The notes under the pieces: model-generated | Seen by the model: only the letters and a program-made list of their open reading frames with translations | Told to the model about the DNA's origin: nothing | The model's database searches: none | In this document: positions 27,161 through 43,748 of the stretch, piece by piece | Position numbering within the stretch: position 1 is the first letter of the stretch | Layout of the letters: every line of letters starts with the position of its first letter | Position numbers and translations under genes: made by a program | Assembly: GCF_014522265.1 (NCBI RefSeq) | Contig: NZ_CP017024.1 | Coordinates: forward strand, 3,916,501 to 3,980,500 | From: Pseudomonas oryzihabitans | GTDB lineage: Bacteria; Pseudomonadota; Gammaproteobacteria; Pseudomonadales; Pseudomonadaceae | DNA length: 64,000 nt | Direction of reading: 5' to 3'

Positions 27161-28561
27161 ATGACCACCAGTGGTATCAGCGAAGCCGCCGTCCAGACCT
27201 TTGTCGCGGCCGAACGCGAGCGCTTCCTGGCGCGCAATCCCAAATCCCTCGCCCTGGCCGAGCGGGCCCGGCACTCGCTGTTCGGCGGCGTGCCCATGCA
27301 CTGGATGAACGACTGGTCGATGCCCAGTGCGCTGTTCGTCAGCCATGCCCAGGGTTCGCGCTTCCACGATGTAGACGGCCACGAGTACATCGACTTCTGC
27401 CTGGGCGACACCGGCAGCATGTTCGGCCATTCGCCGGCACCCATCGCCCGGGCCCTGGCCGAGCAGGGCGCGCGCGGGCTCACCACCATGCTGCCCGGCG
27501 AGGATGCCGTGGTCGCCGGGGAATTGCTCGCCGAGCGCTTCGGCCTGCCGTTCTGGCAGGTGGCGACCACCGCCACCGACGCCAATCGCTATGTCATCCG
27601 CTGGGCGCGCGCCATCACCAATCGCAAGGTGCTGCTGGTGTTCGACGGCTGCTATCACGGCACCGTCGACGACGTCATGGTGCGCCATCAGGACGGTCGC
27701 ACCGTGCACCGCGGCGGCCTGATCGGCCAGGCGCACAACCTGGCCGAGACCAGCCGGGCCGTGCCCTTCAACGACCTCGCGGCGCTGGAGGAGGCGCTGG
27801 CGAAGGGCGACGTCGCCGCGCTGATCTGCGAACCGGCCATGACCAACATCGGCATGGTACTGCCCGCCCCGGGCTTCATGGACCAGGTCCGCGCCCTGAC
27901 CCGGCAATACGGCACCCTGCTGATCATCGACGAGACCCATACCCTGTCCACCGGCCCCGGCGGCTGTACCCGCGCCTGGAATCTGCAGCCGGACTTCATC
28001 ACCTTCGGCAAACCCATCGCCGGGGGCGTGCCCTGTTCGGCCTATGGCTGCAGCCACGAGATGGCCCAGGCCATGCGCCTGGCACAGCAGCACGCCAGCG
28101 AGACCAGCCACGGCCATGGGCACAGCGGCATGGGCACCACGCTGTCGGCCAATGCCCTGGCCATGCGCTGCCTGAGAGTCAACCTGGAGGAAGTGGCGAC
28201 GCCGGCCGCCTACGAACGGATGCTGCCGCTGGCAGCGCGACTGGCCGCCGGTCTGCGCGCGGTGATCGCCCGCCATGGCCTGGCCTGGTCGGTGACGGAG
28301 CTGGGCGCCCGCTGCGAATTCCAGTTCTGCGCCACGCCGCCCACCACCGGCGCCGAGGCGGAAGCCGCCTTCCATGACAGCCTGCAGCAGGCGTTGCACC
28401 TCTATCTGATCAACCGGGGCATCCTCATCACCCCCTTCCACAACATGACCCTGTGCTGCCCGGACCTCGCTGCGGCGGACGTCGATCTACTGCTCGCCAC
28501 CCTCGACCAGGGCCTCGCCGAACTCCTGGCGCTGCCCGGCGCCCGGGAGTGTCAGTCATGA
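27161..28561 (+). CDS. Class III PLP aminotransferase (glutamate-1-semialdehyde aminomutase-like)
   Basis: 466-residue fold type I PLP enzyme. GAGG stands 7-10 nt before the ATG at 27161. The PLP aspartate lies in LLIIDETHTLSTGPGG (D257) and the Schiff-base lysine in TFGKPIAGGVPC (K284). GCYHGTVDDVMV and the EYIDFCLGDTGSMFGHSP N-terminal region resemble glutamate-1-semialdehyde 2,1-aminomutase and omega-amine transaminases. It is not hemL, since it lies in a catabolic operon and its flanking genes are SDRs and a gamma-glutamyl-amine-type ligase. Likely transaminates a keto or amine intermediate; substrate unknown. Its stop overlaps the next start (ATGA). Confidence 0.87.
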   Translation: MTTSGISEAAVQTFVAAERERFLARNPKSLALAERARHSLFGGVPMHWMNDWSMPSALFVSHAQGSRFHDVDGHEYIDFCLGDTGSMFGHSPAPIARALAEQGARGLTTMLPGEDAVVAGELLAERFGLPFWQVATTATDANRYVIRWARAITNRKVLLVFDGCYHGTVDDVMVRHQDGRTVHRGGLIGQAHNLAETSRAVPFNDLAALEEALAKGDVAALICEPAMTNIGMVLPAPGFMDQVRALTRQYGTLLIIDETHTLSTGPGGCTRAWNLQPDFITFGKPIAGGVPCSAYGCSHEMAQAMRLAQQHASETSHGHGHSGMGTTLSANALAMRCLRVNLEEVATPAAYERMLPLAARLAAGLRAVIARHGLAWSVTELGARCEFQFCATPPTTGAEAEAAFHDSLQQALHLYLINRGILITPFHNMTLCCPDLAAADVDLLLATLDQGLAELLALPGARECQS

Positions 28562-29925
28562 ACGTCGCCGACGCCCAGGAAGCCCGCGACTTCCTCGCCG
28601 CCCACCCCGAGGTGCGCAGCATCGAACTCATGCTGATCGATGCCAATGGCGTGCCCCGCGGCAAGCTGCTGCACCGGGACGAATTGCTGGCCATCTACGA
28701 AGAGGGCCGGCCGCTGCCCAGCTCCATCCTGGCGCTGACCCTGCAGGGGGAGGACGTCGAAGCCACCGGTCTGGTCTGGGAGGTCGCCGATGTCGACTGC
28801 TGGACCTATCCACTGCCCGGCAGTCTGACCCTGCAACCCTGGCGCAGCACCCCAACCGGTCAGGTGCAGGTGAGCATGCACCCGACCCAGGGGCTGCCGG
28901 CCACGCCCGCCGATCCCCGGCACGCCCTGGTACGGGTGATCGAACGGCTGCAGGCCGACGGCTTCCAGCCGGTGATGGCGGTGGAGCTGGAGTTCTATCT
29001 GCTCGACCGCACCCGCGACGCCCAGGGCCGGCCGCAACCGGCGCTGCAGATGAATGGCGTGCGACCCGGCTCGCCGCAGGTCTACGGGGTCTACGAACTG
29101 GAGCAGCTGCAACCCTTTCTCGATGACCTCTACGCCGCCTGCGAGGTGCAGGGCCTGCCGGTGCGCACGGCCATCTCCGAATACGCCCCTGGCCAGCTCG
29201 AATTGACCCTGCTGCACCGCTTCGACGCCCTCCAGGCCATCGACGAAGGCATTCGCTACAAACGCCTGGTCAAGGGCGTGGCCAACCGCCACGGGCTGCA
29301 GGCCTGCTTCATGGCCAAGCCGTTCGGCGACCAGGCGGGCAGCGGCCTGCACCTGCACGTCAGCCTGGCCGATGCCGAAGGCCACAACCTCTATGCCAGC
29401 GACGACCCGCAGGGCACGCCGCTGCTGCGCCATTCCATCGGCGGCATGCAGCACCGGATGCTGGATGCCCTGGCGATCTTCTGTCCCAACGCCAACTCCT
29501 ACCGCCGTTTCCAGGCCAACAGCTATGCGCCGCTGGCCAAGAGCTGGGGGGTCAACAACCGCAGCGTATCCTTGCGCGTGCCGGGTGGTCCGGCCGGCAG
29601 TCGCCACATCGAACACCGCATCTGCGGCGCCGATGCCAATCCCTATCTGGCCGCCGCGGCCATCCTCGCCGCCATTCACGAAGGCATCCGTGACGAGCGT
29701 GACCCGGGGCCGGCCATCGTCGGCAATGGCTACGAGCAGGCCACCGACTTCCTGCCCACCGACTGGCTCACCGCGCTGCAGGCGCTGGAGCGCTCCAGCT
29801 GGATCCGGGAGGCGCTGGGTGAGCGTTTCGTCGAGGTCTATCTGGCGATCAAGCGTGCGGAATACCGGCAATTCATGGCCGAGGTGGGGGAACAGGACTG
29901 GCGCTGGTATCTGACCCACGCCTGA
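28558..29925 (+). CDS. Glutamine synthetase family protein (gamma-glutamyl-amine ligase-like)
   Basis: 455 residues, starting in a 4-nt overlap with the aminotransferase. Glutamine synthetase catalytic core is evident: VELEFYLLDRT (metal-binding E), SEYAPGQLELTL, GSGLHLHVSLAD (H of the nucleotide site), PNANSYRRFQANSYAPL and HIEHRICGADANPYLAAA. Length and lack of the adenylylation region match PuuA/SpuI-type enzymes that ligate glutamate to amines using ATP, rather than housekeeping GlnA (about 470 residues with a tyrosine loop). With an aminotransferase and two SDRs it probably makes a gamma-glutamyl derivative of an amine substrate, but the amine is not known. Confidence 0.87.
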   Translation: MNVADAQEARDFLAAHPEVRSIELMLIDANGVPRGKLLHRDELLAIYEEGRPLPSSILALTLQGEDVEATGLVWEVADVDCWTYPLPGSLTLQPWRSTPTGQVQVSMHPTQGLPATPADPRHALVRVIERLQADGFQPVMAVELEFYLLDRTRDAQGRPQPALQMNGVRPGSPQVYGVYELEQLQPFLDDLYAACEVQGLPVRTAISEYAPGQLELTLLHRFDALQAIDEGIRYKRLVKGVANRHGLQACFMAKPFGDQAGSGLHLHVSLADAEGHNLYASDDPQGTPLLRHSIGGMQHRMLDALAIFCPNANSYRRFQANSYAPLAKSWGVNNRSVSLRVPGGPAGSRHIEHRICGADANPYLAAAAILAAIHEGIRDERDPGPAIVGNGYEQATDFLPTDWLTALQALERSSWIREALGERFVEVYLAIKRAEYRQFMAEVGEQDWRWYLTHA

Positions 29926-29940: not shown

Positions 29941-30648
29941 TCAGTCCGACTCGCCCGGCACGGCGATGAGGCGATTCACGCTGATGATGCCGCCATTCCA
30001 GATCATCTCAACCGGCGCCGCCTGGACCACGGCAGTGACCAGGCGCGGGGTTAGCAGCGCCCAGCAATGGCTGCCGGGGCGGCGTACCGAGCGATAGCGC
30101 AGACCTGGGCAGCCGGCGCGTTTGGCGGCACCGCCTAGACTGCGCGCCGCGCTGTAGTCCAAGGGATCATGGATAGGGTCTGCTGCTTTTAGCACCAGGG
30201 CGTCGCGTACCCCCTTCTCGGAGAAGCTCACCGAAAGATTACGGAAGACGAAACGCTCGTACTTCAGTGCCGGCACCTTCGACCAGTAGGCCTGCTGATG
30301 ATGGTGGACTTCGGCAAGGGCGGTATCGGGATGGTCGGCCAGATAGAGAACGCCGAAGGTGCCATCGCTGAAGCGCGAACCCTCTGGATTGACATGAGTG
30401 AAGGGCGCTGTCGCATAGGAGCAACCCGAGATGCCGAAGGGAATCTGTTCGCGAGGAATCAGCTCCAGACGCCCCAGCTCGTTTTGTAGTCGCGGGTTGG
30501 TCAACACCTGTAACTGATAGAGCACGGCGAAATCTTCGGCATTGGCAACATCGTCGAACAGGTGGATGGGTGGGAATTTGGAGTTGACCAGGCGATGCCC
30601 TTGTAGACGCTCATCGGCCAGCAGGGGCAGGTCCTCCAGCTTCACCAT
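29941..30648 (-). CDS. RES-domain toxin
   Basis: 235-residue RES-family protein. The conserved segments are RLVNSKFPPIHLFDD near the N terminus (first Arg), GVLYLADHPDTALAEVHHH in the middle (Glu), and the C-terminal strands. RES toxins such as ParT, MbcT and P. putida RES act on NAD+ or related substrates and stop growth. It is encoded immediately downstream of, and overlapping by 7 nt, a ParS/MbcA-type antitoxin. The pair is less GC-rich than its neighbours and lies between unrelated operons, suggesting acquisition. Confidence 0.88.
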   Translation of the reverse strand: MVKLEDLPLLADERLQGHRLVNSKFPPIHLFDDVANAEDFAVLYQLQVLTNPRLQNELGRLELIPREQIPFGISGCSYATAPFTHVNPEGSRFSDGTFGVLYLADHPDTALAEVHHHQQAYWSKVPALKYERFVFRNLSVSFSEKGVRDALVLKAADPIHDPLDYSAARSLGGAAKRAGCPGLRYRSVRRPGSHCWALLTPRLVTAVVQAAPVEMIWNGGIISVNRLIAVPGESD

Positions 30649-31046
30649 CCGGCACCGCGCAGGACGTCGATACGCCGGAAGGTTTCATAGAGGGAGATCA
30701 TGTCGCCTTGGGCCATGATCTCCAGCGGCGAACGGCCATTGAAGAATTCATTGTGATTGGCCATGGCGACGAAGCCATAGACGTTTTCCGGGTTGTCGAA
30801 AACCAGGCGCAACGCGGAATGCATGTTCAGCACCAGGCTGACACGCTGCAGTTGATCGGCATCCAGGCTCACCGCCCATTCGCTGTCCCGCTGCGACGCT
30901 CGGGTATAGGTGCTGCGTGAGATGCGCAGGATCCGGCAACTCTGCTCGCTGGAAGCTTGCCATCTTTCCAGGATATTGAGCGCTGCCCTTAGACCAATCG
31001 TGCTCTGGCTTTTCGAAAATTGCTCGACGATGGCAACCTGGGACAT
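30642..31046 (-). CDS. Xre/MbcA/ParS-type antitoxin
   Basis: 134 residues from the ATG at 31046 (GGAG 7 nt upstream); the longer frame to 31088 has no ribosome site. N-terminal half is a helix-turn-helix of the Xre-like kind (ILRISRSTYTRASQRDSEW); the C-terminal half is the toxin-binding DUF2384 domain (LVFDNPENVYGFVAMANHNE, then FFNGRSPLEIMAQGD). It is transcribed first and overlaps the RES toxin start, the standard order that ensures antitoxin excess. Antitoxins of this family also repress their own promoter, which would lie just upstream of 31046. Confidence 0.87.
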   Translation of the reverse strand: MSQVAIVEQFSKSQSTIGLRAALNILERWQASSEQSCRILRISRSTYTRASQRDSEWAVSLDADQLQRVSLVLNMHSALRLVFDNPENVYGFVAMANHNEFFNGRSPLEIMAQGDMISLYETFRRIDVLRGAGW

Positions 31047-31141
31047 AGTATTCTCCAATCTGTAGAGGCAAATATAATGAATTTGCATCTACAGAGATAG
31101 AGGCTTTACCGCTCCCTCGCTAGGGCGGCTAGATGGGCGTC

Positions 31142-32711: not shown

Positions 32712-34514
32712 CTAAACGGCGCTGCGACTCGCCAACCACGCCCGCCACCCACCATGCGCCGTGATGTCCTCAGCCTCCGCCAGGCCATAGGGCTCGCAGA
32801 TGAAGCCGGTTTCCCAGCTGCCATCGGCCAGTTCCACCTTGCCCAGGCCGAGCGGGGCGGGGATGCCGGTGAGAAAGCTACCCAGTTCGCTGCTGGGCAG
32901 CTCCCAGACCTCCACCTCGATGGCGGCGCCGTCTTCGGCGACCCGGACCATGCCCGGACGTAGCGGCGGGCCGCCGGCCAGGGCGTGGAGGCGATAGTGC
33001 GGCGCGCTCCGGGTCAGGGCCAGGCGGCGGGCACCGCGGGCGAGCAACTGGCCATTGAGGGGCAGCCCCTGCAGATGGGCACCGCAGACCACCAGCCGGG
33101 CACGGTCATGGTGGGCGGGACGCGCCGGCAGGCTGGCGTGCGGCAGGGCGCCGCCGACCAGCGCCAGGCCTTGGGCTTCCTGCAGGGCCGCGGCCAGGCT
33201 CAGCAGGTACTGGTCGGTGAAGACCCGGCCGAACAGCGTCACGCCCCAGGGCAGGCCGTTGGCCATGACGCCGGCCGGCACGGCCACGGCGGCGTAGTCC
33301 AGCAGGTTCATGAAGTTGGTGTAGTAACCCAGATCGGCGTTGCGGGTGACCGGTTCGGCGGCCAGTTCCGCCAGGGTCACCGGGCGCGGATAGGTGGGGG
33401 TAAGGACGCAATCCAGTTCGGCGAGCAGGGTGTCGCACCGGGCTTTCAGCGCCTGCAGGCGGTAGCCGGCGCGAAAGGCGTCCACCGCCGTGGTGTCGGG
33501 CGCCTTTTCCAGCACGGCGCGGATCACTGGCAGTACGGCGTCCGGTTCGGCCTCGATCAGGGCGCCGGCCACGCTATAGCGCTCGGCGACCCAGGGGCCT
33601 TCATAGAGCAGGCGCGCGGCTTCCAGGAAGGGCGCAAGGTCCAGCGGCACGGCTTCGCCCCCCAGGGCCTCCAGCTGGGCCTTGGCCGCCGCGAACAGCG
33701 CCGGGCTTTCCGGGCAGCCGAGGAATTCCAGCTGGGTCGGGACGCCGAAGCGGAAGGGCCGCGGGCGGCCGAAGGCGCTGGCGTCGTTCCACTGTGGATT
33801 GGCGCGGCTGTAGGGATCGCGCGGATCGAGGCGGGCGGTGAGCGCCAGCAGCGTGCTGGCTTCGGCGGCGGTGGCGGTAAAGAAGGTCACGCAGTCCAGG
33901 GTCTGGCAGGCAGGGACCACGCCGGCGGTGGACAGCAGTCCCTTGCTGCCCTTGAGGCCCACCAGGTTGTTCAGCCCCGCGGGCACGCGCCCGGAACCGG
34001 CGGTATCGGTGCCCAGGGCGAAGCTGGCGACACCCAGGGACACGGCCAGCGCCGAACCGGCACTGGAGCCGCCGGAAGGATAGTCCGGATGGACACTGTT
34101 GCGACAGGCGCCGTAGGGCGAACGGGTGCCGTTGAGGCCGGTGGCGAACTGGTCGAGATTGCACTTGCCCAGCGGCACGGCGCCCAGGGCGACCAGCTGT
34201 TCCACCAGGGTCGCCGAGCGTTCGGGCACATAGGCATAGGCCGGGCAGGCCGCCGTGGTGGGGATGCCGGCGAGGTCGATGTTGTCCTTGATGGCGAAGG
34301 GGATGCCATAGAGCGGCAGCTCGGCGGGATCGCGATCGTCCAGGGCGGCGAGATAGGGCTCCAGCTCGGCTGGGGTCAGCAGGTGGATGAACAGGTGGTA
34401 CTCGGGGTTGAGGGCCGCGGCCTGTTCCCGCAATTCAACGATGAGCGTGCGTGGGGTCCGGGTCCCGGCGGCATAGGCGGCGCTCAGGGTGTCGAGGCGC
34501 AGATCGAATGTCAT
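32712..34514 (-). CDS. atzF: Allophanate hydrolase (AtzF-type), guanidine/urea pathway
   Basis: 600 residues from the ATG at 34514. The amidase-signature catalytic triad is visible: K76 in FAIKDN, S150/S151 in SGGSSAGSA, and S174 in DTAGSGR. The C-terminal ~150 residues are the extra AtzF domain (VVCGAHLQGLPLNGQLLARG). It hydrolyses allophanate to 2 NH3 and 2 CO2 and is the last enzyme of the guanidine operon, 11 nt after the carboxylase stop. Upstream proteins deliver allophanate from carboxyguanidine. A true urea route would share this enzyme, so it does not discriminate by itself. The 239-base gap 32473-32711 to the TPR gene shows nothing recognisable. Confidence 0.92.
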   Translation of the reverse strand: MTFDLRLDTLSAAYAAGTRTPRTLIVELREQAAALNPEYHLFIHLLTPAELEPYLAALDDRDPAELPLYGIPFAIKDNIDLAGIPTTAACPAYAYVPERSATLVEQLVALGAVPLGKCNLDQFATGLNGTRSPYGACRNSVHPDYPSGGSSAGSALAVSLGVASFALGTDTAGSGRVPAGLNNLVGLKGSKGLLSTAGVVPACQTLDCVTFFTATAAEASTLLALTARLDPRDPYSRANPQWNDASAFGRPRPFRFGVPTQLEFLGCPESPALFAAAKAQLEALGGEAVPLDLAPFLEAARLLYEGPWVAERYSVAGALIEAEPDAVLPVIRAVLEKAPDTTAVDAFRAGYRLQALKARCDTLLAELDCVLTPTYPRPVTLAELAAEPVTRNADLGYYTNFMNLLDYAAVAVPAGVMANGLPWGVTLFGRVFTDQYLLSLAAALQEAQGLALVGGALPHASLPARPAHHDRARLVVCGAHLQGLPLNGQLLARGARRLALTRSAPHYRLHALAGGPPLRPGMVRVAEDGAAIEVEVWELPSSELGSFLTGIPAPLGLGKVELADGSWETGFICEPYGLAEAEDITAHGGWRAWLASRSAV

Positions 34515-34525
34515 GGTGGCTTCCT

Positions 34526-37500
34526 TCACGTCTTGTCGATGACCAGCAGGCGCTGGCCGGCGCGGATCGGCGAGCCGGGCTGGACCTGCAGGTCGTGGAT
34601 CCGGCCGCTGCAAGGCGCGAGCAACGGGATTTCCATCTTCATGGATTCCAGGATCAGCAACGGCTGGCCGGCTTCCACCTGGTCGCCCGGCTGCACCTGG
34701 GCCTGCCAGAGATTGCCGGCCACCGGGCTTTCCAGGGCCAGCTGGTGGCTGGCGAGGGGGACATCCTCGGTGGCTTCCACGGCGGCTTCCTGGCTGTCGA
34801 AATGCGCCTGGCCGGAGTCGATCCAGCGCTGCCGCTCGGCGGCGAAGGCGCTCTGCTGGCGCGTGCGGAAGGTGGTAATACCCTCGGCTTCGCGTGCCAG
34901 GAAGGCCTGGTAGTCGGCCAGGGACAATTCGCTCTCTTCGATGCGCAGCGGCACGCGACCCAGTGGGAAGTCCGCGCGGATGCGTAGCAGCTCGTCCGCC
35001 GACACCTCATGGAAGCGGATCTGATCGAAGAAGCGCAGCAGATAGGGCTGGCCGTGGAAGGCTTCCACGTCACGGTAGCGATTCCACATCTGCAGGGTGC
35101 GACCGACGAACTGATAGCCGCCAGGGCCTTCCATGCCGTACACGCAGAGATAGGCGCCACCGATGCCCACCGAGTTTTCCGCGGTCCAGGTACGCGCCGG
35201 GTTGTACTTGGTGGTCACCAGCCGGTGACGCGGATCGAGGGGGGTGGCCACCGGCGCACCCAGATAAACGTCGCCGAGGCCCATCACCAGGTAGCTGGCG
35301 TCGAAGACGATGCGCTTGACCGCCTCCAGGGACTCCAGGTCATTCACCCGGCGGATGAACTCCAAGTTGCTCGGGCACCAGGGCGCGTCCTTGCGCACCG
35401 TGGTGGTGTATTTTTCGATGGCCAGGCGGCAGGCCGGATCGTCCCAGGACAGCGGCAGATGGACGATGCGCGAGGGCACCCGCAGGTCCTGGGCATCGCC
35501 CAGCGCCTGCCAGCAGCGACTGACCGCCGCCAGCAGCTCTGCCAGAGGCAGTGCCTCGGGCTGGTAGTGCACCTGTAGCGAACGGATGCCGGGGGTGAGT
35601 TCGTACAACCCGGGCAGCGCCAGCGCGGCCAGTGCCTGCATCAGCCCATGGCCGCGAAAGCGCAAGGCCAGGTCCAGCTCCGGTGGGCCGATCTCCAGCA
35701 GCAGATGGGTATCCCCGGAAAGCCGCGCCACCAGGCGCTCGGCGCCCTGGCCCAGATCCAGCACCACGGGATCGCCGCGCTCGGGCGTAATGGCGATCTC
35801 CGCCTGCGGCTGCAAGCTGCTTTCCTCGGCCAGGCGTGCCTGCTGCAGGCGTCGCGCGGTCGCCAGGTCCACCGGCAGGAAGCGCAGCCGGTCGCCGGCC
35901 TTGAGCTGGCCCAGTTGCCAGAGGTCGGCTTCGATCACTGTGACCGGACAGACGAAGCCGCCCAGGCTGGGGCCGTCCGGGCCGAGGATGACCGGCATGT
36001 CGCCGGTGAAGTCCACCGCGCCCACCGCATAGGGATTGTCATGGATATTGGAGGGATGCAGACCAGCCTCGCCGCCGTCTTCGCGGGTCCATTCCGGCTT
36101 GGGGCCGATCAGGCGCACGCCGGTGCGACTGGAATTGAAGTGCACCTCCCAGTCGGTGGCGAGAAAGAGATCCAGATAGGCCGGGCTGAAATAGTCCGGC
36201 GCACCGTGCGGTCCATAGATGACGCGCAGGGTGCGGGTCTCGGGCAGCCGGGTGGTCAGGGCGAGGGGCAGCCGGGCCTCCGCACGTGCGTCGGTCAGCG
36301 AGTGCAGGTGCAGCACGTCGCCGGCGCGCAGGGCGCGGCCACCGTGACCGCCGAACTGGCCGAGGGTGAAGGTGCTGCGACTGCCCAGGTAGTCGGGCAG
36401 GTCCAGGCCGCCTCTCAGGCAGAGATAGCTGCGGGCGCCGGCGCCGGTGATGGCGCCCAGGTGCAGGATGGCACCCGCGGGGACGCGAAAGACGCTGTCC
36501 ATGGCCTGGGGTTGGTCGTCCAGCAGGATCGGCAGCGCCGCGCCGGTGACCACCACCACGGCCTCGGTGTTGAATCTCAGGGTAGGGCCGGCCAGGGTGA
36601 TTTCCAGGGCGGCCGCGCGGCCGTCGTTACCGAGCAGGCGATTGCCCAGGCGCAGGGCGCGGTCGTCCATGGGGCCGGAAGGGGGAATGCCCACCGACCA
36701 GTAGCCGAGGCGCCCGGGGGCGTCCTGCACCGTGGTCTGGGTGCCGGCGCTGAGCACCTCCAGGGTGGTGGCCTGGTAGGTCAGCCCTTCCAGGCAGCGC
36801 GTCCAGGGCTGGCCCGAGGCGAAGGGCGCGGCGGCGAGGATCTGCCGCAGGTAGTCGCCATTGGTTTCCACGCCATAGAGCCGGGTTGCCGCCAGGGCCT
36901 GATCGAGGCGTTGCCGGGCGGCGTCACGGTCGGGGGCCCAGGCGATGACCTTGGCCACCAGGGGATCGAAATAGGGCGGGATCTCGCAGCCGGCCTCGAC
37001 CCAGGTGTCCAGGCGCAACGCCCGGCCATCCGCGGGTGGGAAGTCGACCTGGGTCAGCAGGCCCGGGCTGGGCTGGAAGTCGCGACCCGGGTCTTCGGCA
37101 TAGAGCCGCGCCTGGATGGCATGGCCCTGGGGCTGCAGCCCCGCGGCGAGCACGGCCAGCGGCGGCAGTTCGCCAGCGGCCAGTTCGATCATCCAGCGCA
37201 CCAGGTCCACGCCCCAGACCTGCTCGGTGACGCCGTGCTCGACCTGCAGCCGGGTGTTCACCTCCAGGAAGTAGAAGCGGTCGGCGGCGCTGTCGTAGAC
37301 GAACTCCACGGTACCGGCGCTGCGATAGCGTACCGCGCGTGTCAGCTCCAGGGCGGCGGCGCAGAGCGCCTCGGCCATGCCGGCCGGCAGGTTGGGCGCC
37401 GGGGTTTCCTCCAGTACCTTCTGGTTGCGGCGCTGTACCGAGCAGTCGCGCACGCCCAGCGCCAGCACCTCGCCCTGGCCATCACCGAACACCTGCACCT

Positions 37501-38125
37501 CCAGGTGCCGGGCGCGTTCGATGTACTTCTCCAGGAAGACGCCCGCGTCGCTGAAGTTGTTCTGGCCCAGCCGGCGCACGGCGTCGAAGGCCTCGGCGAG
37601 TTCAGGGTCCGTGCGGCACACGCGCATGCCGATGCCGCCGCCACCGGCGGTGCTCTTGAGCATCACCGGATAACCGATCTGTTGCGCGGCCGCCAGTGCC
37701 CCTTCCAGGGTATCCAGCAGCTCGGTGCCCTCCAGCAGCGGCACGCCCTGGGCGCGCGCCAGGGCCCGCGCCGTGTGCTTGAGACCAAAGGTGCGCAGTT
37801 GCTCGGGGGTGGGCCCGACGAAGGCGATGCCGGCGGCTTCGCAGGCTTCGGCGAAGGCGGCGTTCTCGGAGAGGAAGCCATAACCCGGGTGAATGGCCTG
37901 GGCGCCGCTCTGGCGCGCCACCTCGAGCAGCTTGGCGGTGTCCAGGTAGGTGGCCGCGGCGGCGCCTTCGCCCAGGCTGAAGGCCTGGTCGGCCGCGCTG
38001 ACATGGCGGCTGGCGCGATCGGCTTCGCTGTAGACGGCGACCGCGGCGACGCCCAAGTCGCGCAGGGTGCGCTGGATGCGGCAGCTGATGGCGCCACGGT
38101 TGGCGATGAGCAGGGTGGTGAACAT
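34526..38125 (-). CDS. Urea/guanidine carboxylase (biotin-dependent, multidomain)
   Basis: 1199-residue cytosolic enzyme with biotin carboxylase (about 1-450: TTLLIANRGAISCRIQRTL, AGGGGIGMRV, FYFLEVNTRLQVEHGVTE), carboxyltransferase halves of the KipA type (about 470-790; VQDAPGRLGYWSVGIPPSGP) and KipI type (about 830-1050), and a biotinyl domain with the lysine in LESMKMEIP near the C terminus. Proteins of this architecture were annotated urea carboxylase, but those in ykkC-controlled operons with DUF1989 partners preferentially carboxylate guanidine (ATP + HCO3- + guanidine to carboxyguanidine). The riboswitch and partners here support guanidine. It lies directly upstream of atzF. Confidence 0.93.
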   Translation of the reverse strand: MFTTLLIANRGAISCRIQRTLRDLGVAAVAVYSEADRASRHVSAADQAFSLGEGAAAATYLDTAKLLEVARQSGAQAIHPGYGFLSENAAFAEACEAAGIAFVGPTPEQLRTFGLKHTARALARAQGVPLLEGTELLDTLEGALAAAQQIGYPVMLKSTAGGGGIGMRVCRTDPELAEAFDAVRRLGQNNFSDAGVFLEKYIERARHLEVQVFGDGQGEVLALGVRDCSVQRRNQKVLEETPAPNLPAGMAEALCAAALELTRAVRYRSAGTVEFVYDSAADRFYFLEVNTRLQVEHGVTEQVWGVDLVRWMIELAAGELPPLAVLAAGLQPQGHAIQARLYAEDPGRDFQPSPGLLTQVDFPPADGRALRLDTWVEAGCEIPPYFDPLVAKVIAWAPDRDAARQRLDQALAATRLYGVETNGDYLRQILAAAPFASGQPWTRCLEGLTYQATTLEVLSAGTQTTVQDAPGRLGYWSVGIPPSGPMDDRALRLGNRLLGNDGRAAALEITLAGPTLRFNTEAVVVVTGAALPILLDDQPQAMDSVFRVPAGAILHLGAITGAGARSYLCLRGGLDLPDYLGSRSTFTLGQFGGHGGRALRAGDVLHLHSLTDARAEARLPLALTTRLPETRTLRVIYGPHGAPDYFSPAYLDLFLATDWEVHFNSSRTGVRLIGPKPEWTREDGGEAGLHPSNIHDNPYAVGAVDFTGDMPVILGPDGPSLGGFVCPVTVIEADLWQLGQLKAGDRLRFLPVDLATARRLQQARLAEESSLQPQAEIAITPERGDPVVLDLGQGAERLVARLSGDTHLLLEIGPPELDLALRFRGHGLMQALAALALPGLYELTPGIRSLQVHYQPEALPLAELLAAVSRCWQALGDAQDLRVPSRIVHLPLSWDDPACRLAIEKYTTTVRKDAPWCPSNLEFIRRVNDLESLEAVKRIVFDASYLVMGLGDVYLGAPVATPLDPRHRLVTTKYNPARTWTAENSVGIGGAYLCVYGMEGPGGYQFVGRTLQMWNRYRDVEAFHGQPYLLRFFDQIRFHEVSADELLRIRADFPLGRVPLRIEESELSLADYQAFLAREAEGITTFRTRQQSAFAAERQRWIDSGQAHFDSQEAAVEATEDVPLASHQLALESPVAGNLWQAQVQPGDQVEAGQPLLILESMKMEIPLLAPCSGRIHDLQVQPGSPIRAGQRLLVIDKT

Positions 38126-38221
38126 TCGAGGCGTCCTCGAAGGCGGCGGGCCGTCCCGCCAGATAAAAGCTCCCGGGGTCGTCCCCAGGAGGCCGCGCGA
38201 GGGCGGTAGGTCAGTCGGCGT

Positions 38222-38326
38222 CTAGCGCTTGCCGCGGTAGCTGTAGCGCCCGGCGCGGACTTCGCAGAGGCGATGGAGACGCGGTCGCAGCCACTGCCAG
38301 AGCTGGCGTGCGTGGGTCAGTCCCAT
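38222..38326 (-). CDS. Small basic ORF (34 residues) in guanidine operon
   Basis: Unreported-looking small ORF between UAAP2 and the carboxylase. Its ATG at 38326 lies inside the UAAP2 end (overlap ATGGGACTGA) and has a strong ribosome site GGAGG 7-8 nt upstream, located within UAAP2 coding sequence. The product contains 8 Arg, 1 Lys and 3 Trp/Tyr-type aromatics in its first half and ends GRYSYRGKR; it is strongly basic and could form a short amphipathic helix ([17 protein letters not shown]). No family recognised. Coupling and ribosome site argue for translation; conservation has not been tested. The 96-base stretch 38126-38221 after it contains a short G/C hairpin (38145-38160) and nothing else. 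Confidence 0.6.
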
Positions 38327-38952
38327 AGCAGCACCTCCGCCGGAGTAGGGTTCCAGCCGTTGCAGGGGTTGTTGAGTTGCGGGCAATTGGAAATAAGCAG
38401 GATGACGTTGGTCTCGGCGCGCAACTCCACATACTTGCCGGCGCCGGAGATGCCATCGGCGAAGGTCAGGCCGCCGTCCGCGGTCACCGGCACGTTCATG
38501 AAGAAGTTGATGTTGGCCCCGATGTCGCGCTTGCCCAGGCGCCCGTCATGGCCACCGGCGCAGAGGAAGTTGTCACGGCAGCTGTGCATCTGCCGGCGAT
38601 CCAGGGCGTAGCGCACCGTGTTGCTCTCCTGGGAGCAGGCGCCGCCCAGGGTGTCATGGCGGCCACAGGTGTCGGCGACGATGGTCAGCAGGGGATTGCC
38701 CAGGTTGGAATAGAGCACGCTGCCGGTCGACAGATAGACCCGGCCCTGGCGTCTCAGGGTGCGCTGGGGATCGTAGCGTTCCTGGGGGTTGGCGGCGGCG
38801 TAGAAGAGGGTGTCCACCGCCTGGTTGCCTTCCAGGTCATGGATGCGCAGGGTCTGGCCGGCCTTGACCTCCTTGAGGTAGGGCGCTCCGGCCGGCAGGA
38901 GGGCGCGGTAGCTGGCATCTTCCGGGCGTTTGGTGCTGGCGATCAGGGTCAT
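38317..38952 (-). CDS. Urea amidolyase-associated protein 2 (DUF1989), carboxyguanidine deiminase subunit
   Basis: 211-residue DUF1989 protein (UAAP2). Conserved residues include the cysteine/histidine segment [15 protein letters not shown] (about 108-122) and [13 protein letters not shown], probable metal-binding sites, and the end [18 protein letters not shown]. With the neighbouring UAAP1 it forms a heteromeric enzyme shown in Pseudomonas to be a carboxyguanidine deiminase (CgdA/CgdB), which converts carboxyguanidine to allophanate and ammonia. Older annotation as urea metabolism proteins of unknown role is superseded by that work. Encoded 9 nt downstream of UAAP1 and overlapping a small ORF at its 3' end. 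Confidence 0.9.
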
Positions 38953-38961
38953 GGCAGGGCC

Positions 38962-39672
38962 TCAGAGGAAGTAGCGGGCGGTGTTCTGGAAGGCGCGCTC
39001 GTTTTCCGGGCGCGAGGTGCGGCAGCGTTCGGCCACCTCGGGCGCCGCGCGCAACTGGGCGAGATCGACCGGGCGCGGCGCATAGACCGGGTCCGGGTCC
39101 AGCGGATGCTGCAGGGCGGTCAGCACCACCAGGGTGTTCATGGGCGCATGGAGCTCGACCAGATCGCCGGCGCGGGAGTTGCCGGGCACGAAGGCAAAGG
39201 CGCCCGCGGCATCCACGTCCACCCGGCTGAACAGGTTGAGGGTCATCAGCAGGTCTTCCAGGCCCAGGCCCCACTTGGCCAGTTCCACCAGCAGGTTGTC
39301 GGTGCCATTGCGGTGGAAGCCGTTGCGCAGCTCCTGGTAGCGACCCGCGCCGTATTTCTCCGCCACCTCGGCGGCATTGGCCACGCCGCCGAAGCTGTCG
39401 TGCCAGCCGCAGGTGTCGCGCACCACGGCCGCCAGCACCCGCCCCATGTCGGAATAGAGGCAGTGTCCGGCGGTGAGACGCGCGGTGTGCTGGCCCTTGA
39501 GGGTATCGGGCAGGTTCAGCCGCTCGCTGCGGTCATCGGCATTGAACAGCAGCAGGCTGACATTGGCGCCGCCTTCCACGTCGGTCAGCCGCAGGGTCTG
39601 GCCGCGGCGCAGGATGAAGGAGGCGGTGCCGCCGCCGGGGACGCGTTCCTGGTAGAGCAGTTCGTCAGTCAT
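38962..39672 (-). CDS. Urea amidolyase-associated protein 1 (DUF1989), carboxyguanidine deiminase subunit
   Basis: 236 residues from the ATG at 39672 (an in-frame TTG at 39678 adds two). DUF1989 fold like UAAP2, with RGQTLRLTDVEGGANVSLLLF, the DTCGWHDSFGG motif and NLFSRVDVDAAGAFAF. It pairs with UAAP2 as the carboxyguanidine deiminase; which of the two matches CgdA or CgdB is not assigned here. Encoded between the importer ATPase (11 nt upstream) and UAAP2, in the usual gene order of ykkC-regulated guanidine operons. Confidence 0.9.
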   Translation of the reverse strand: MTDELLYQERVPGGGTASFILRRGQTLRLTDVEGGANVSLLLFNADDRSERLNLPDTLKGQHTARLTAGHCLYSDMGRVLAAVVRDTCGWHDSFGGVANAAEVAEKYGAGRYQELRNGFHRNGTDNLLVELAKWGLGLEDLLMTLNLFSRVDVDAAGAFAFVPGNSRAGDLVELHAPMNTLVVLTALQHPLDPDPVYAPRPVDLAQLRAAPEVAERCRTSRPENERAFQNTARYFL

Positions 39673-39683
39673 GGGCAACCTCG

Positions 39684-40442
39684 TCAGGTAAGGGCTGGCC
39701 GAGTCCCAGCCGCATGCACGGGCCGGGTCTTGGCGGTCAGGGGCAGGTCGTAGGTGATGCGGGCGCCATAGGCGCCGGGGGCTTGCGGGTCCTGGCGGAC
39801 CTTGTCGAACACCAGCACCCGGGTGGCCAGGCTGAAGCCCTCGTGCAGGTCATGGGTGACCATGAACACCGTGAGCGGGCGCTCGTGCCAGAGCTCCAGC
39901 AGCAGGGCGTGCATGTCCTTGCGGATGCCGGGATCGAGGGCGCCGAAAGGCTCGTCCAGGAGCAGGATGCGCGGCCGGACGATCAGCGCCTGGGCGATGG
40001 CGAGGCGCTGCTGCATGCCGCCGGACAGCTGCCCCGGGTACTTGCCCAGCGCCTGGCTCAGGCCGACGCGTTCGAGCAGGGCGGCGGCCTGTTCCCGGGC
40101 CTGGCGCTTGGCCGTGCCCAGCAGCCGGCCGAGCAGCGGGGACCTGGGCAATTCCAGGCCCAGGGCGACGTTGTCCAGCACGCTCAGGTGGGGAAACACC
40201 GAATAGCGCTGAAAGACCACGCCCCGCTCGGGATCCGGTTCCGCCGAGAGCGGCTGACCATCGATGCTGATCTCGCCACGGCTGGGCCGCTCCTGGCCGA
40301 GCAGCAGACGCAGGAAGGTGGACTTGCCGCAGCCGGAGGCACCGACCAGGGCGCAGAATTCGCCTTCGCGCACCTGCAGATTGAGACCTTCGAGCACCAC
40401 CTGCTCGCCATAGCGTTGCCAGAGATTGCGGACCTCGATCAT
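39684..40442 (-). CDS. Guanidine-operon ABC transporter ATPase (SsuB/TauB type)
   Basis: 252-residue ATPase: Walker A GASGCGKST (about 34-42), signature LSGGMQQR, Walker B ILLLDEPFGALD, switch histidine in MVTHDLHEG. The C-terminal KVRQDPQAPGAYGARITYDL tail is typical of the subset linked to urea carboxylase operons. Paired with the permease (1-nt overlap, ATGA) and the binding protein at 41278. Imports the operon's substrate, most likely guanidine or a derivative, across the inner membrane. Confidence 0.9.
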   Translation of the reverse strand: MIEVRNLWQRYGEQVVLEGLNLQVREGEFCALVGASGCGKSTFLRLLLGQERPSRGEISIDGQPLSAEPDPERGVVFQRYSVFPHLSVLDNVALGLELPRSPLLGRLLGTAKRQAREQAAALLERVGLSQALGKYPGQLSGGMQQRLAIAQALIVRPRILLLDEPFGALDPGIRKDMHALLLELWHERPLTVFMVTHDLHEGFSLATRVLVFDKVRQDPQAPGAYGARITYDLPLTAKTRPVHAAGTRPALT

Positions 40443-41254
40443 CAGCGACCCTCCCCGTACCAGGGAAAGGCGCGCCGCGTCAGCAGGCGCAGGCCCGCGT
40501 CCAGCAGCCAGGCCAGCAGGGTGATCCAGGCGACATAGGGCAGGATCACGTCCATGGCCAGATAGCGCCGCACCAGGAAGATGCGATAGCCCAGGCCATC
40601 GGTGGCGGCGATGGCCTCGGCGGCGATGAGAAACAGCCAGGCGGCGCCCAGCTGCAGCCGCAGGGCGATGAGCAGGCGCGGCAGCAGCTGCGGCAGCACC
40701 AGGCGCAGGATCACCGTCCAGCTGTTGGCGCCCAGGGTCTGGGCCTTGATCAGCAGTTCGCGTGGCAGCTCCCGGGCGCGCTGGTCCAGCTCGCGGATCA
40801 GCACCGGGGTGACGCCCACCACGATCAGCATCACCTTGGCCAGTTCGCCCAGGCCGAAGACGATGAAGAGGATCGGCAGGATCGCCAGCGGCGGGATCAT
40901 CGAGAGCACCGTCACCAGCGGCGACAGCGGCGCGCCGACCAGGGGCAGACTGCCCGCGGCGATGCCCACCACCAGGGCGATCAGCGCGGCGATCCCCAGG
41001 CCCAGGCCCAGGCGTTGCAGGCTGGCCAGGGTGTCCTGCCAGAACGGATAACCCCCGGTACGCACGTCGGCGGTAAAGGCCAGGCGCTGCACCGCATCGG
41101 CCATCTGCGCCACGCTGGGCAACAGCTTGTCGTTGGGGTTTTCCGCCAGCCGGGTGGCCGAGCCCACCAGATAGAGCAGAGCGAGCAGGGCGAAGGGCAG
41201 CAGGACCAGCAGGAGCCGGCCGCCCCGATCGGGATGCCGATTGATGAAGCGCAT
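40442..41254 (-). CDS. Guanidine-operon ABC transporter permease
   Basis: 270 residues from the ATG at 41254; the larger frame from 42379 is a shadow of the binding-protein gene. Six or so membrane helices of the BPD_transp_1 family (SsuC/TauC type), with the ATPase-coupling loop REELLIKAQTLGANSWTVIL-like region (ELLIKAQTLGANSWTVI) and a C-terminal PYVAWITLLAWLLDAGLRLL helix. Works with the ATPase and binding protein as the guanidine-type importer. Confidence 0.9.
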   Translation of the reverse strand: MRFINRHPDRGGRLLLVLLPFALLALLYLVGSATRLAENPNDKLLPSVAQMADAVQRLAFTADVRTGGYPFWQDTLASLQRLGLGLGIAALIALVVGIAAGSLPLVGAPLSPLVTVLSMIPPLAILPILFIVFGLGELAKVMLIVVGVTPVLIRELDQRARELPRELLIKAQTLGANSWTVILRLVLPQLLPRLLIALRLQLGAAWLFLIAAEAIAATDGLGYRIFLVRRYLAMDVILPYVAWITLLAWLLDAGLRLLTRRAFPWYGEGR

Positions 41255-41277
41255 GGGCGTCGTCCTCGCGGCGGGGC

Positions 41278-42342
41278 TCAGAGCTTGCCGTCGGCGGCCA
41301 GCTGTACGAAGGTCGGATCGAAGCGCAGCTTGAGATTGCCCGCGTCCCCGCTGGTCTTGCCGCCCGGATAGGCGATGCCGATGGCCTCGGCGCTGGGTGC
41401 GCCCTGGCCCAGCAGGCCGTGTTCGAAGGAGAAGTGGGCGATGCGCTGCATGGTGGTCGGCAGCGCGGGATCCTTGACGAAGGCCAGGGCCTCGGCGGGC
41501 GTGGCGAACAGCCGGGTCTTGTCCAGTTGCGCCTGGAAGCCGGCGAGATCGGTACCCGAGGCCTTGGCCATGGCCTCCAGGGCCGCCTTGCCCTTGGCGT
41601 CGCCGGACTGCATCAGCGCCAGCATCTCGAACCAGGCACCGGTCAGGGCCTTGCCCAGGGCCGGGTTGTCCTTGAGCGTGGCGGTGTTCACCACCAGCAT
41701 GTCGAGGATCTCGCCGGGAATCTTGCTGGAGTCGAACACCTCGGTGGTGTCTGGCTGAGCCTTGATCTCGGCCAGCAGCGGATTCCAGGTCACCACGTTG
41801 CGCACGTCGGCGGTCTGGAAGGCGGCCACCATGTCGGCGTCGGAGGTGTTGACGGTGGTCAGGTCCCTCTCGCTCAGTCCCACGCTCTGCAGCGCGCGCG
41901 CCAGCAAATAGTGGGAGACGGAGAACTGCACCAGGTTGACCTGCTGGCCCTTGAGGTCGGCCAGGGTCTTGCCCTTGCCCTTCATCACCACGCCGTCGTT
42001 GCCGTTGGAGTAGTCGCTGACGATCAGCGCCGTGCTGTCCACGCCGCCGGCGGCCGGAATGGTCAGGGCGTCCATGTTGGTCATGGCGCAGCCGTCGAAC
42101 TGGCCGGTGGTGTATTGATTGATGGATTCGACGTAGTCGTTGAGCTGCACGACCTCGATGTGGATGCCGTATTTCTTGGCCCACTTGTCGATGATGCCCT
42201 GGGCCTGGGCTTCGCCCCAGGGCATCCAGCCGGCATAGATCGTCCAGCACACCTTGAAGTCGTCGCGCGGCGCCGCCTGAGCGGTGGCACCGAGGAGCAG
42301 GGAACAACCGAGAACGAGCGAGGCGAGCAGGGAATGGCGCAT
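41278..42342 (-). CDS. Guanidine-operon ABC transporter substrate-binding protein
   Basis: 354 residues from the ATG at 42342, with GGAGG 5 nt upstream. Signal peptide ends near TAQA-APRDDFKVCWT (about residue 23). The mature protein belongs to the NMT1/SsuA-like binding proteins that accompany urea carboxylase genes; DFKVCWTIYAGWMPWGEAQ and NDYVESINQYTTGQFDGCAM are characteristic. Previously called putative urea-binding proteins, but a ykkC guanidine-I riboswitch about 50 nt upstream argues that guanidine or a close relative is the ligand. First gene of the operon. Confidence 0.9.
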   Translation of the reverse strand: MRHSLLASLVLGCSLLLGATAQAAPRDDFKVCWTIYAGWMPWGEAQAQGIIDKWAKKYGIHIEVVQLNDYVESINQYTTGQFDGCAMTNMDALTIPAAGGVDSTALIVSDYSNGNDGVVMKGKGKTLADLKGQQVNLVQFSVSHYLLARALQSVGLSERDLTTVNTSDADMVAAFQTADVRNVVTWNPLLAEIKAQPDTTEVFDSSKIPGEILDMLVVNTATLKDNPALGKALTGAWFEMLALMQSGDAKGKAALEAMAKASGTDLAGFQAQLDKTRLFATPAEALAFVKDPALPTTMQRIAHFSFEHGLLGQGAPSAEAIGIAYPGGKTSGDAGNLKLRFDPTFVQLAADGKL

Positions 42343-42392
42343 GGGACCTCCAATAGGATGGACGACGGGACAGGAGCACGCGACTGGCGCTG

Positions 42393-42487
42393 TGTCTCCC
42401 GGGCTTTTGTCCCGCCGTGTAACCCCATCAGAGGTCGACGACTCTCGGACCAGACACCCGCACGAGCGAGTCGGAACCCTAGTCATC
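42393..42487 (-). promoter_or_regulatory. Guanidine-I riboswitch (ykkC)
   Basis: The 329-base gap 42343-42671 contains no protein gene. On the minus strand it carries the conserved ykkC blocks in order: ACTAGGGTTCCG (about 42473-42484), CTGGTCCGAGAG (about 42442-42453) and ACACGGCGGGACAAAAGCCC with GGGAGA (about 42395-42420). These match the guanidine-I aptamer, which folds around guanidinium and usually switches transcription on. It ends about 50 nt before the substrate-binding-protein start, so guanidine probably induces the whole operon down to 32712. I recognised it by its motifs; an Rfam RF00442 search would confirm it. Confidence 0.93.
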
Positions 42488-42545
42488 CATTGCAGATTGT
42501 GGTGCATCAAACCGGCTGGCCGGTGCTCCTGCACGCTATGGCCTT

Positions 42546-42671: not shown

Positions 42672-43577
42672 TCAGCGCCCCAGCGCCGCGATCAGCGCCT
42701 GGCGAAAGGCATTCACCGCCGGGGGCAATTCGCGACCCGCCATGCTCTGCAATTCGATCCGCCGCGCGGCCAGGCCTTCGTCCAGCAGGGGCAGGGCCAC
42801 CAGTTGGCCTTCGCGCAGTCGACTACGCAGGCTCAGTTCGCTTGAGAGTGCCACGCCACCGCCCAAGGCGGCGAAGCGATAGAGCGCCTGCATGTTGTTG
42901 CTCACCAGCACGGGTTCGAAGGAGAGGCCCTGGACGCCACAGCAGATGTCGAACAGCTGGCGCACCGTGGTATCGGGCATCGGCAGCGCCAGTGGAAAGG
43001 GCTGCAGATCGGCCAGGGTCAGCCCGGTACGGCCGGCAAGGGGATGCTCGGGCGCCACCACCGCCTCAATGGCGCCACTCAAGGTGGCGTCGACGCTGAT
43101 GTCCGGCTCTGGCCTGAGGCTGAAGGTGAGGCCCAGATCGGCGTCACCTTCCTGGACCCGGCGCGTGACCGCCGCCGGCGCGCAGACCTCCAGGGAAAAG
43201 TGGATGCCGGCATAGCCCTGGCGAAAGGCCACGATGACCTCGGGCAGGAAGTCCAGCGAAAAGCCTTCGGTGGTGGCCAGGCGTACCTGGCCGCGGCGCA
43301 GGTCGGCGAGGCCCCGCAACTCGGCCGCGACCTGCTCGCTGGCCAGCTGCGCCTTGCGCGCATGCACGGCCAGACGCTCGCCGGCGGCGCTGGGCACGAC
43401 GCCACGGGCGCGGCGTTCGAGCAGCGGCGTCTGCAGTTCGCGCTCCAGTTTGGCGATCTGGCGACTCACCGCACTGGCCGCGACATTGAGCCGCTGGGAA
43501 GCTTCGCTGATGGAGCCGCACCGCACCACCTCGAGGAAATAGCGCAGGGCGGTGGACTGAATGCCGTAGGGCTGCAT
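42672..43577 (-). CDS. LysR family transcriptional regulator
   Basis: 301 residues from the ATG at 43577 (an upstream in-frame ATG at 43643 is less likely). The N-terminal helix-turn-helix is TALRYFLEVVRCGSISEASQ followed by NVAASAVSRQIAKLEREL, and the rest is a LysR substrate-binding domain ending near VNAFRQALIAALG. It is divergent from the ABC/M20 cluster at 43749, 171 bases away, so it probably controls that cluster; it lies upstream of but separate from the guanidine operon on the same strand. Ligand unknown. Confidence 0.88.
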   Translation of the reverse strand: MQPYGIQSTALRYFLEVVRCGSISEASQRLNVAASAVSRQIAKLERELQTPLLERRARGVVPSAAGERLAVHARKAQLASEQVAAELRGLADLRRGQVRLATTEGFSLDFLPEVIVAFRQGYAGIHFSLEVCAPAAVTRRVQEGDADLGLTFSLRPEPDISVDATLSGAIEAVVAPEHPLAGRTGLTLADLQPFPLALPMPDTTVRQLFDICCGVQGLSFEPVLVSNNMQALYRFAALGGGVALSSELSLRSRLREGQLVALPLLDEGLAARRIELQSMAGRELPPAVNAFRQALIAALGR

Positions 43578-43748
43578 AGGGCCTCCTTTGCCGAAAAGGC
43601 ATGGCTCGCATCTAAATATTCTGCTTGTGGCATGGGATGGCAAGACCTAGAGTCGGGTCAAGAGACCAACAACAGGCTTCAGCAAGAACTCCTTTCCCGC
43701 GTTTCGCGGACCTGCCTTTGACCAACCACCGCCCCGGAGACAGACGGC

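Follow-up and report, generated by a model that had tools for sequence, protein, structure and literature searches.

Guanidine-assimilation operons that carry two classes of guanidine riboswitch are of an already known kind (the papers below are cited from excerpts). In Vreelandella boliviensis (PMC12508155), such an operon opens with a 5′ guanidine-I riboswitch, encodes an ATP-binding cassette (ABC) importer, the CgdA/B pair, a carboxylase and an allophanate hydrolase, and has a guanidine-II riboswitch directly before the carboxylase gene; ligand binding has been measured there for both aptamers. The same division, with guanidine-I before the importer and deiminase genes and guanidine-II before those for the carboxylase and allophanate hydrolase, is described for Raoultella terrigena, Erwinia rhapontici and Klebsiella michiganensis (PMC12186494), which belong to a different bacterial family from Pseudomonas. 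We find this arrangement on the minus strand of a 64,000-nucleotide stretch of Pseudomonas oryzihabitans DNA (contig NZ_CP017024.1, forward-strand positions 3,916,501 to 3,980,500; hereinafter the window). Unlike its V. boliviensis counterpart, this operon has no mgdH and mgdL between the carboxylase and allophanate hydrolase genes. What is possibly new is how its guanidine-I riboswitch acts: the class usually controls transcription through a terminator (PMC12186494) and is presumed to be transcriptional in V. boliviensis, whereas in the window we predict a translational switch. Likewise, Bacillus subtilis ykkC shares the aptamer family RF00442 and promotes transcription (PMC12186494), in contrast to the leader in the window, which has no run of T and displays complementarity between the P2 hairpin of the aptamer and the Shine–Dalgarno (SD) sequence. 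No tandem arrangement is reported for the guanidine classes in the excerpt of PMC9481103, and the present case is one of two switches in one operon rather than in tandem in one leader.

We posit that this operon is probably gated twice by guanidine, with guanidine-I serving as a translational ON switch and guanidine-II gating the carboxylase. When guanidine is absent, the 5′ strand and loop of P2 would pair with the SD of the gene for the importer's substrate-binding protein and the strands of P3 with the leader, burying the ribosome site in one long hairpin; guanidine would keep P2 and P3 together while the approximately 50-nt leader is made, freeing the SD. Imported guanidine would be carboxylated with ATP and bicarbonate, and the resulting carboxyguanidine deiminated to allophanate by two DUF1989 subunits and then hydrolyzed, giving three ammonia in all (the pathway is that of the literature, with the enzymes assigned by homology). 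The guanidine-II element inside the operon would then gate the translation of the carboxylase. Somewhat more cautiously, we lean toward a broader proposal, namely that guanidine-I in Pseudomonas and part of the other Gammaproteobacteria is translational, with P2 itself acting as the anti-SD and the ribosome site mimicking the 3′ strand of P2. If true, one mRNA would carry two different and independent guanidine sensors that both operate on translation, one at the importer and the other at the carboxylase, which is costly in ATP, and Pseudomonas and some of its class would depart from the usual transcriptional picture of guanidine-I. A translational guanidine-I with P2 as the anti-SD is not described in the excerpts of PMC12186494, PMC12508155, PMC11410670, PMC7266159, PMC10907184, PMC9481103, PMC9561414, PMC7736828 and PMC9788540, a set to which the primary guanidine-I papers do not belong.

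Searched over its full length with cmscan and Rfam 15, the window gave two matches above the gathering score, RF00442 (guanidine-I) and RF01068 (guanidine-II). The former lies at 42394–42493 on the minus strand, covers the full length of the model (1–107 of 107) and scores 91.5 bits against a gathering score of 63 (E = 3.4e-15); no other guanidine-I match reaches E ≤ 0.001 anywhere in the 5.05 Mb genome. This confirms as a guanidine-I aptamer the ykkC blocks that an earlier sequence-only reading had placed on the minus strand at 42393–42487, 6 nt short at the 5′ edge, and for which it had suggested the RF00442 search. The aptamer ends 52 nt before the ATG of the binding-protein gene, and this leader contains no hairpin followed by a run of T, as the terminating form of guanidine-I would have (although this does not define the aptamer family), its longest such run being two bases; an intrinsic terminator was rejected for this lack of a T-run. 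Instead, the full leader folds into one long hairpin (the OFF fold), in which the 5′ strand of P2, its loop and five of the six bases of its 3′ strand (42422–42436), the predicted anti-SD, form a predicted 15-bp helix with 42359–42345. That leader stretch includes the SD itself (GGAGG, 42351–42347), its complementarity to P2 emerging from both folding and the permutation tests described below, and the SD bases are paired with a probability of 0.99–1.0. In the same fold, the P3 region (42408–42418) is predicted to form an 11-bp helix with 42372–42362, and the wider anti-aptamer stretch of the leader (42362–42379) would, via its CTCC, also capture the GGAG at the 3′ end of the aptamer (42399–42396). 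At least four of the six tail bases of the aptamer are leader-paired in the minimum free energy (MFE) structure of all 82 unique leaders compared. The first model, an OFF switch with the SD paired to the leader's CTCC, was dropped, as it omitted P2 and the full leaders offer the SD a far stronger partner.

The complementarity of P2 and the SD was examined in relatives, taken as the best 80 of 558 carboxylase loci found. A leader was kept if its aptamer was matched in full by a scripted pattern and if the next open reading frame (ORF) was 350–380 amino acids long; the window and 71 of the 80 loci together yielded 94 such leaders, 90 of them unique with flanks included (L021, L031, L047, L053, L071, L075, L079, L081 and L082 yielded none). 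Among the 90, the partner of the SD at a mean probability above 0.5 is the aptamer in 65, the leader in 3 and the coding sequence in 4. Across 73 unique pairs, the P2–SD duplex has an energy of −17.5 kcal/mol for own partners as compared to −14.8 (sd 0.32) for permuted ones, with none of 5000 permutations as good. Contiguous pairing past the CTC:GAG core likewise extends for 1.56 bp in own pairs versus 0.68 in permuted ones (0/10000; 43 unique composites), and for 1.75 versus 0.74 (0/10000) when each distinct P2 loop is represented by a single row (24 rows). P2 and the bases around the SD covary: loops with CAGTTG, CAGTAG or CGA are matched before the SD by CAACTG, CTACTG and TCG, respectively, while some loops (e.g., GTTCGG) find no match there. 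In a register control on 75 composites, 69.1% of cells are paired at the proposed register versus 33.4–45.2% when slid by one to three positions; the observed pairing was never reached by permutation (0/5000) and the observed changes on both sides were reached in 6 of 5000. The two strands of P2 also differ in their constancy. Of 78 distinct aptamers, 68 have GACCTC as the 5′ strand, whereas the 3′ strand is split between GAGGTT (41), GGGGTT (29), GAGGTC (7) and GGGGTC (1), a difference expected if the 5′ strand must also match the SD. Finally, refolding aptamers with 40 distinct P2 elements gave −15.9 with own and −13.9 with swapped leaders (0/10000).

Both elements recur beyond these leaders. 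In the genus set, guanidine-I is present in 11 of 13 genomes and guanidine-II in all 13, with both classes on one strand and 2.7–4.4 kb apart, going by coordinates, in 10. In 79 of the 80 related loci, a guanidine-I core pattern lies ahead of the carboxylase on its strand, and the one miss, L053, has only 1.8 kb of upstream sequence. Across the class, 29 of 369 sampled genomes have guanidine-I. The class-wide test used 29 of 38 guanidine-I matches, from 28 other genomes (the match in the window and eight without a fetched locus were left out), with start codons picked by script; since some starts picked in the first pass were implausibly near, a later pass took only those 35 nt or more past the aptamer. 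Six of these 29 leaders have a T-run and 23 do not, and in the MFE structures of the latter the SD is aptamer-paired in 15, free in 5 and leader-paired in 3. Pairing with their own leader brings these 23 a gain of −14.3 as compared to −10.8 kcal/mol (sd 0.6) with swapped leaders (0/10000). Both output types of guanidine-I thus appear to exist in the class, with leaders lacking a T-run the commoner in this sample.

The guanidine-I regions of the relatives show some further features. In 26 of the 80 loci, the carboxylase has two or three guanidine-I core patterns upstream on its own strand (e.g., three each in L022, L025, L027, L028, L036 and L051), and the ORFs behind them differ in length. Some leaders run for 123–219 nt to an ORF of 271 amino acids (L007:2987, L021:6482, L022:2647, L025:2480, L082:6525 and similar) and hold, ahead of that ORF, a stretch resembling a ribosome site and an earlier ATG, which might be the start of a leader peptide or point to a misplaced start. 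A conserved pair of GGACGACC motifs, spanning 33–34 nt with one base of length variation between loci, occurs, on the strand that does not carry the operon, about 280 nt before a guanidine-I element (about 900 nt in L055); on the minus strand it is found at L007:6879, L008:6879, L022:6858, L025:6740, L027:6747, L028:6559, L036:6857, L051:6879 and L055:6087.

The guanidine-II (mini-ykkC) aptamer, which the sequence-only reading had not noticed, lies at 38146–38190 on the minus strand (39.3 bits, gathering score 32, E = 2.4e-4), within the 191 nt that separate the carboxylase gene from the second DUF1989 gene, and ends 20 nt before the ATG of the former. It comprises two hairpins with the loops ACGA and ACGG. 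This two-hairpin pattern occurs within 150 nt upstream of the start of the carboxylase match in 78 of the 80 related loci, which makes the match more than a chance hit; of the other two, L028 has the pattern 199 nt upstream and L021 a variant second loop. The SD of the carboxylase sits in a 7-bp hairpin of its own (TTCGAGG-ACG-CCTCGAA, 38125–38141, minus strand) that touches the start codon, with a predicted pairing probability of 0.99 within the stretch. The same two-hairpin aptamer is known from Pseudomonas aeruginosa, where guanidine-dependent ribosome loading was measured and a P0 helix of the flanks is modeled as hiding the SD (PMC9561414); in the window, in contrast, the SD is held in its own hairpin. 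Among the 46 loci with an SD-like motif (33 of 79 entries, having none, were left out), 26 have the SD paired in the stretch that follows the aptamer and 6 have it paired to the 5′ flank. A second guanidine-II element of this genome (L002, C1:674791–674840) precedes an SMR gene whose product passes the NCBIfam cut-off for SugE (127.5 versus 126 bits) and is likely a guanidine exporter.

The gene order given by the sequence-only reading, an ABC importer, both DUF1989 proteins, the carboxylase and allophanate hydrolase, is borne out by NCBIfam matches, all genes being on the minus strand. The importer consists of the substrate-binding protein (41278–42342; TIGR03427, by annotation a putative urea binder, 559.6 bits, cut-off 333.9), a permease of the taurine/nitrate/sulfonate type (40442–41263; best match 129.6 bits, below the equivalog cut-off of 342) and an ATP-binding protein (39684–40442), which matches 186 ABC ATPase-type families with none of the 25 listed above its own cut-off. 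The two DUF1989 proteins, of the UAAP1 type (38962–39678; TIGR03425, 325.8 bits, cut-off 205.95) and the UAAP2 type (38317–38952; TIGR03424, 321 bits, cut-off 284.7), are by homology the two subunits of carboxyguanidine deiminase, being equated with CgdA and CgdB by family rather than by a tree. They are followed by the guanidine carboxylase (34526–38125; TIGR02712, 1824.6 bits, cut-off 1303.85), which bears the biotin motif ESMKME at 1160 and has its best relatives among named genomes in Pseudomonas sp. 102515 (98% identity) and P. oryzihabitans NBRC 102199 (97%). The last gene is that of allophanate hydrolase (32712–34514; TIGR02713, 778.8 bits, cut-off 511.05). As listed, its ORF begins with a TTG at 34613 and the NF006043 match starts at residue 34 of that ORF; the start is likely the ATG at 34514, which would leave about 11 nt to the carboxylase gene. 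Directly upstream of the operon and on the same strand lies a gene for a LysR-type regulator (42672–43643), with none of the 25 listed families above its own cut-off.

The carboxylase itself points to guanidine as its substrate. Guanidine carboxylases are told apart from urea carboxylases by an Asp at the position of residue 1330 of the Kluyveromyces lactis enzyme and also require an Asp at 1584 (PMC11410670). Aligned to the K. lactis urea amidolyase (PDB 5i8i), the carboxylase in the window has Asp705 at the former position, where the urea enzyme has Asn, and Asp952 at the latter, and so bears the guanidine rather than the urea signature. A urease alpha subunit is encoded elsewhere in the genome, which would make a urea carboxylase redundant, and the other matches to the carboxylase in the genome are partial. 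One of these regions, at C1:3979107–3982266 (from about 62607 of the window to past its end), encodes a second biotin carboxylase followed by segments matching the middle and later parts of the carboxylase, in what we take to be the manner of PxpB/PxpC. Independently of guanidine-I, the two specificity residues, both DUF1989 types, the urease elsewhere and the internal guanidine-II element together make guanidine assimilation a well-supported role for the operon, in agreement with the sequence-only reading, which had assigned this 'urea carboxylase' operon to guanidine. That the importer carries guanidine is a reasonable suggestion; its binding protein has no close solved relative, and the three solved ones found, which bind sulfonate, nitrate and taurine, match at only 27–33 bits.

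Several results count against a translational guanidine-I switch built on P2. The fold energies, computed without tertiary contacts or ligand energy, place the OFF fold at −76.4 and the aptamer-enforced model at −39.2 kcal/mol, a difference of 37 that ligand binding could not reverse at equilibrium, so that the decision would have to fall during transcription. Even formation of the aptamer leaves the SD partly paired, at an opening cost of 7.5 kcal/mol as compared to 12.6 in the OFF fold; it is from these costs, together with the stability of the OFF fold, that we predict an ON switch decided during transcription. A calculation restricted to the aptamer tail (its last 10 nt) has the opposite sign, the ligand-like state raising the cost of opening the SD by 0.7 kcal/mol on average, and classes 40 of 82 leaders as OFF-like and 6 as ON-like. 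Among the relatives, the SD has no aptamer pairing at a mean probability above 0.5 in 25 of the 90 leaders, the own leader ranks top for only 2 of 40 aptamers, and changes on both sides number 65 at a slide of −3 versus 47 at the proposed register, making them a weak measure alone; moreover, the permutation tests do not remove shared ancestry. In the first class pass, which used different start codons and another rule for T-runs, the SD was aptamer-paired at a probability above 0.5 in only 13 of 29 leaders. A terminator is presumed for the homologous switch of V. boliviensis (PMC12508155), and for guanidine-II a P0-type anti-SD helix with the 5′ flank gave no signal over 77 unique pairs (1576 of 5000 permutations as good) and is not supported across relatives. 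Guanidine-I could act on transcription after all, the OFF hairpin stopping RNA polymerase directly or via Rho. We regard this as unlikely, while noting that the class is called usually (PMC12186494) or presumably (PMC12508155) transcriptional, that the leader pairing of the aptamer's 3′ end in every unique leader has the topology of a terminator stem, that a minority of class leaders do have T-runs and that an untranslated mRNA would be exposed to Rho. Yet the window's leader offers no T-run longer than two in its mere 52 nt before the start codon, and a plain terminator would have no need for own P2–SD pairs to be more complementary than permuted ones. Alternatively, this complementarity could be coincidental, with P2 conserved for the sake of the aptamer and any GGAGG able to pair with its CCTC. 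The purine-rich nature of SD sequences, the −14.8 kcal/mol still reached by mismatched partners, the inflation of permutation tests by kinship and the higher count of both-side changes away from the proposed register all fit such a coincidence; nevertheless, we find it rather improbable, as the match reaches into the P2 loop, where own pairs again do better than permuted ones, it is the less variable side of P2 that would lie opposite the SD, and own leaders beat swapped ones in more distant genomes too.

The remaining alternatives concern the substrate. An operon for urea assimilation by urea carboxylase and allophanate hydrolase would agree with the NCBIfam labels, which name a urea carboxylase and a putative urea ABC transporter. 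It was rejected on account of Asp705, in place of the Asn1330 of the urea enzyme, and of the urease elsewhere; the two guanidine riboswitches in the operon also speak against it, as does the DUF1989 deiminase step, which belongs to the guanidine pathway (PMC11410670) and would have no task with urea. We accord it practically no probability. Scarcely more can be given to an operon mainly serving a substituted guanidine (e.g., methylguanidine) or detoxification, with guanidine as an intermediate, although the V. boliviensis guanidine-II switch makes no distinction against methylguanidine (PMC12508155) and a SugE-type exporter gene stands behind a guanidine-II element in the same genome. In V. 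boliviensis, mgdH and mgdL sit between the carboxylase and allophanate hydrolase genes, a place that here holds about 11 nt (the comparison is confined to this spot, the rest of the genome not having been searched). The operon is a clear added case of a known pathway, and one in which names such as 'urea carboxylase' and 'urea importer' prove misleading for Pseudomonas.

Two other loci of the window lie beyond the 3′ end of the operon. At 28453–29925 on the plus strand, near this ammonia-releasing operon, is a glutamine-synthetase-like gene that matches the gamma-glutamylputrescine synthetase family below the cut-off. At 29941–31088 on the minus strand, two ORFs overlap: the one upstream is a weak match (19.6 bits against a cut-off of 90) to the Xre antitoxin of RES/Xre systems, its partner of 235 amino acids has no NCBIfam match at E ≤ 0.001, and the two are possibly a toxin–antitoxin pair.

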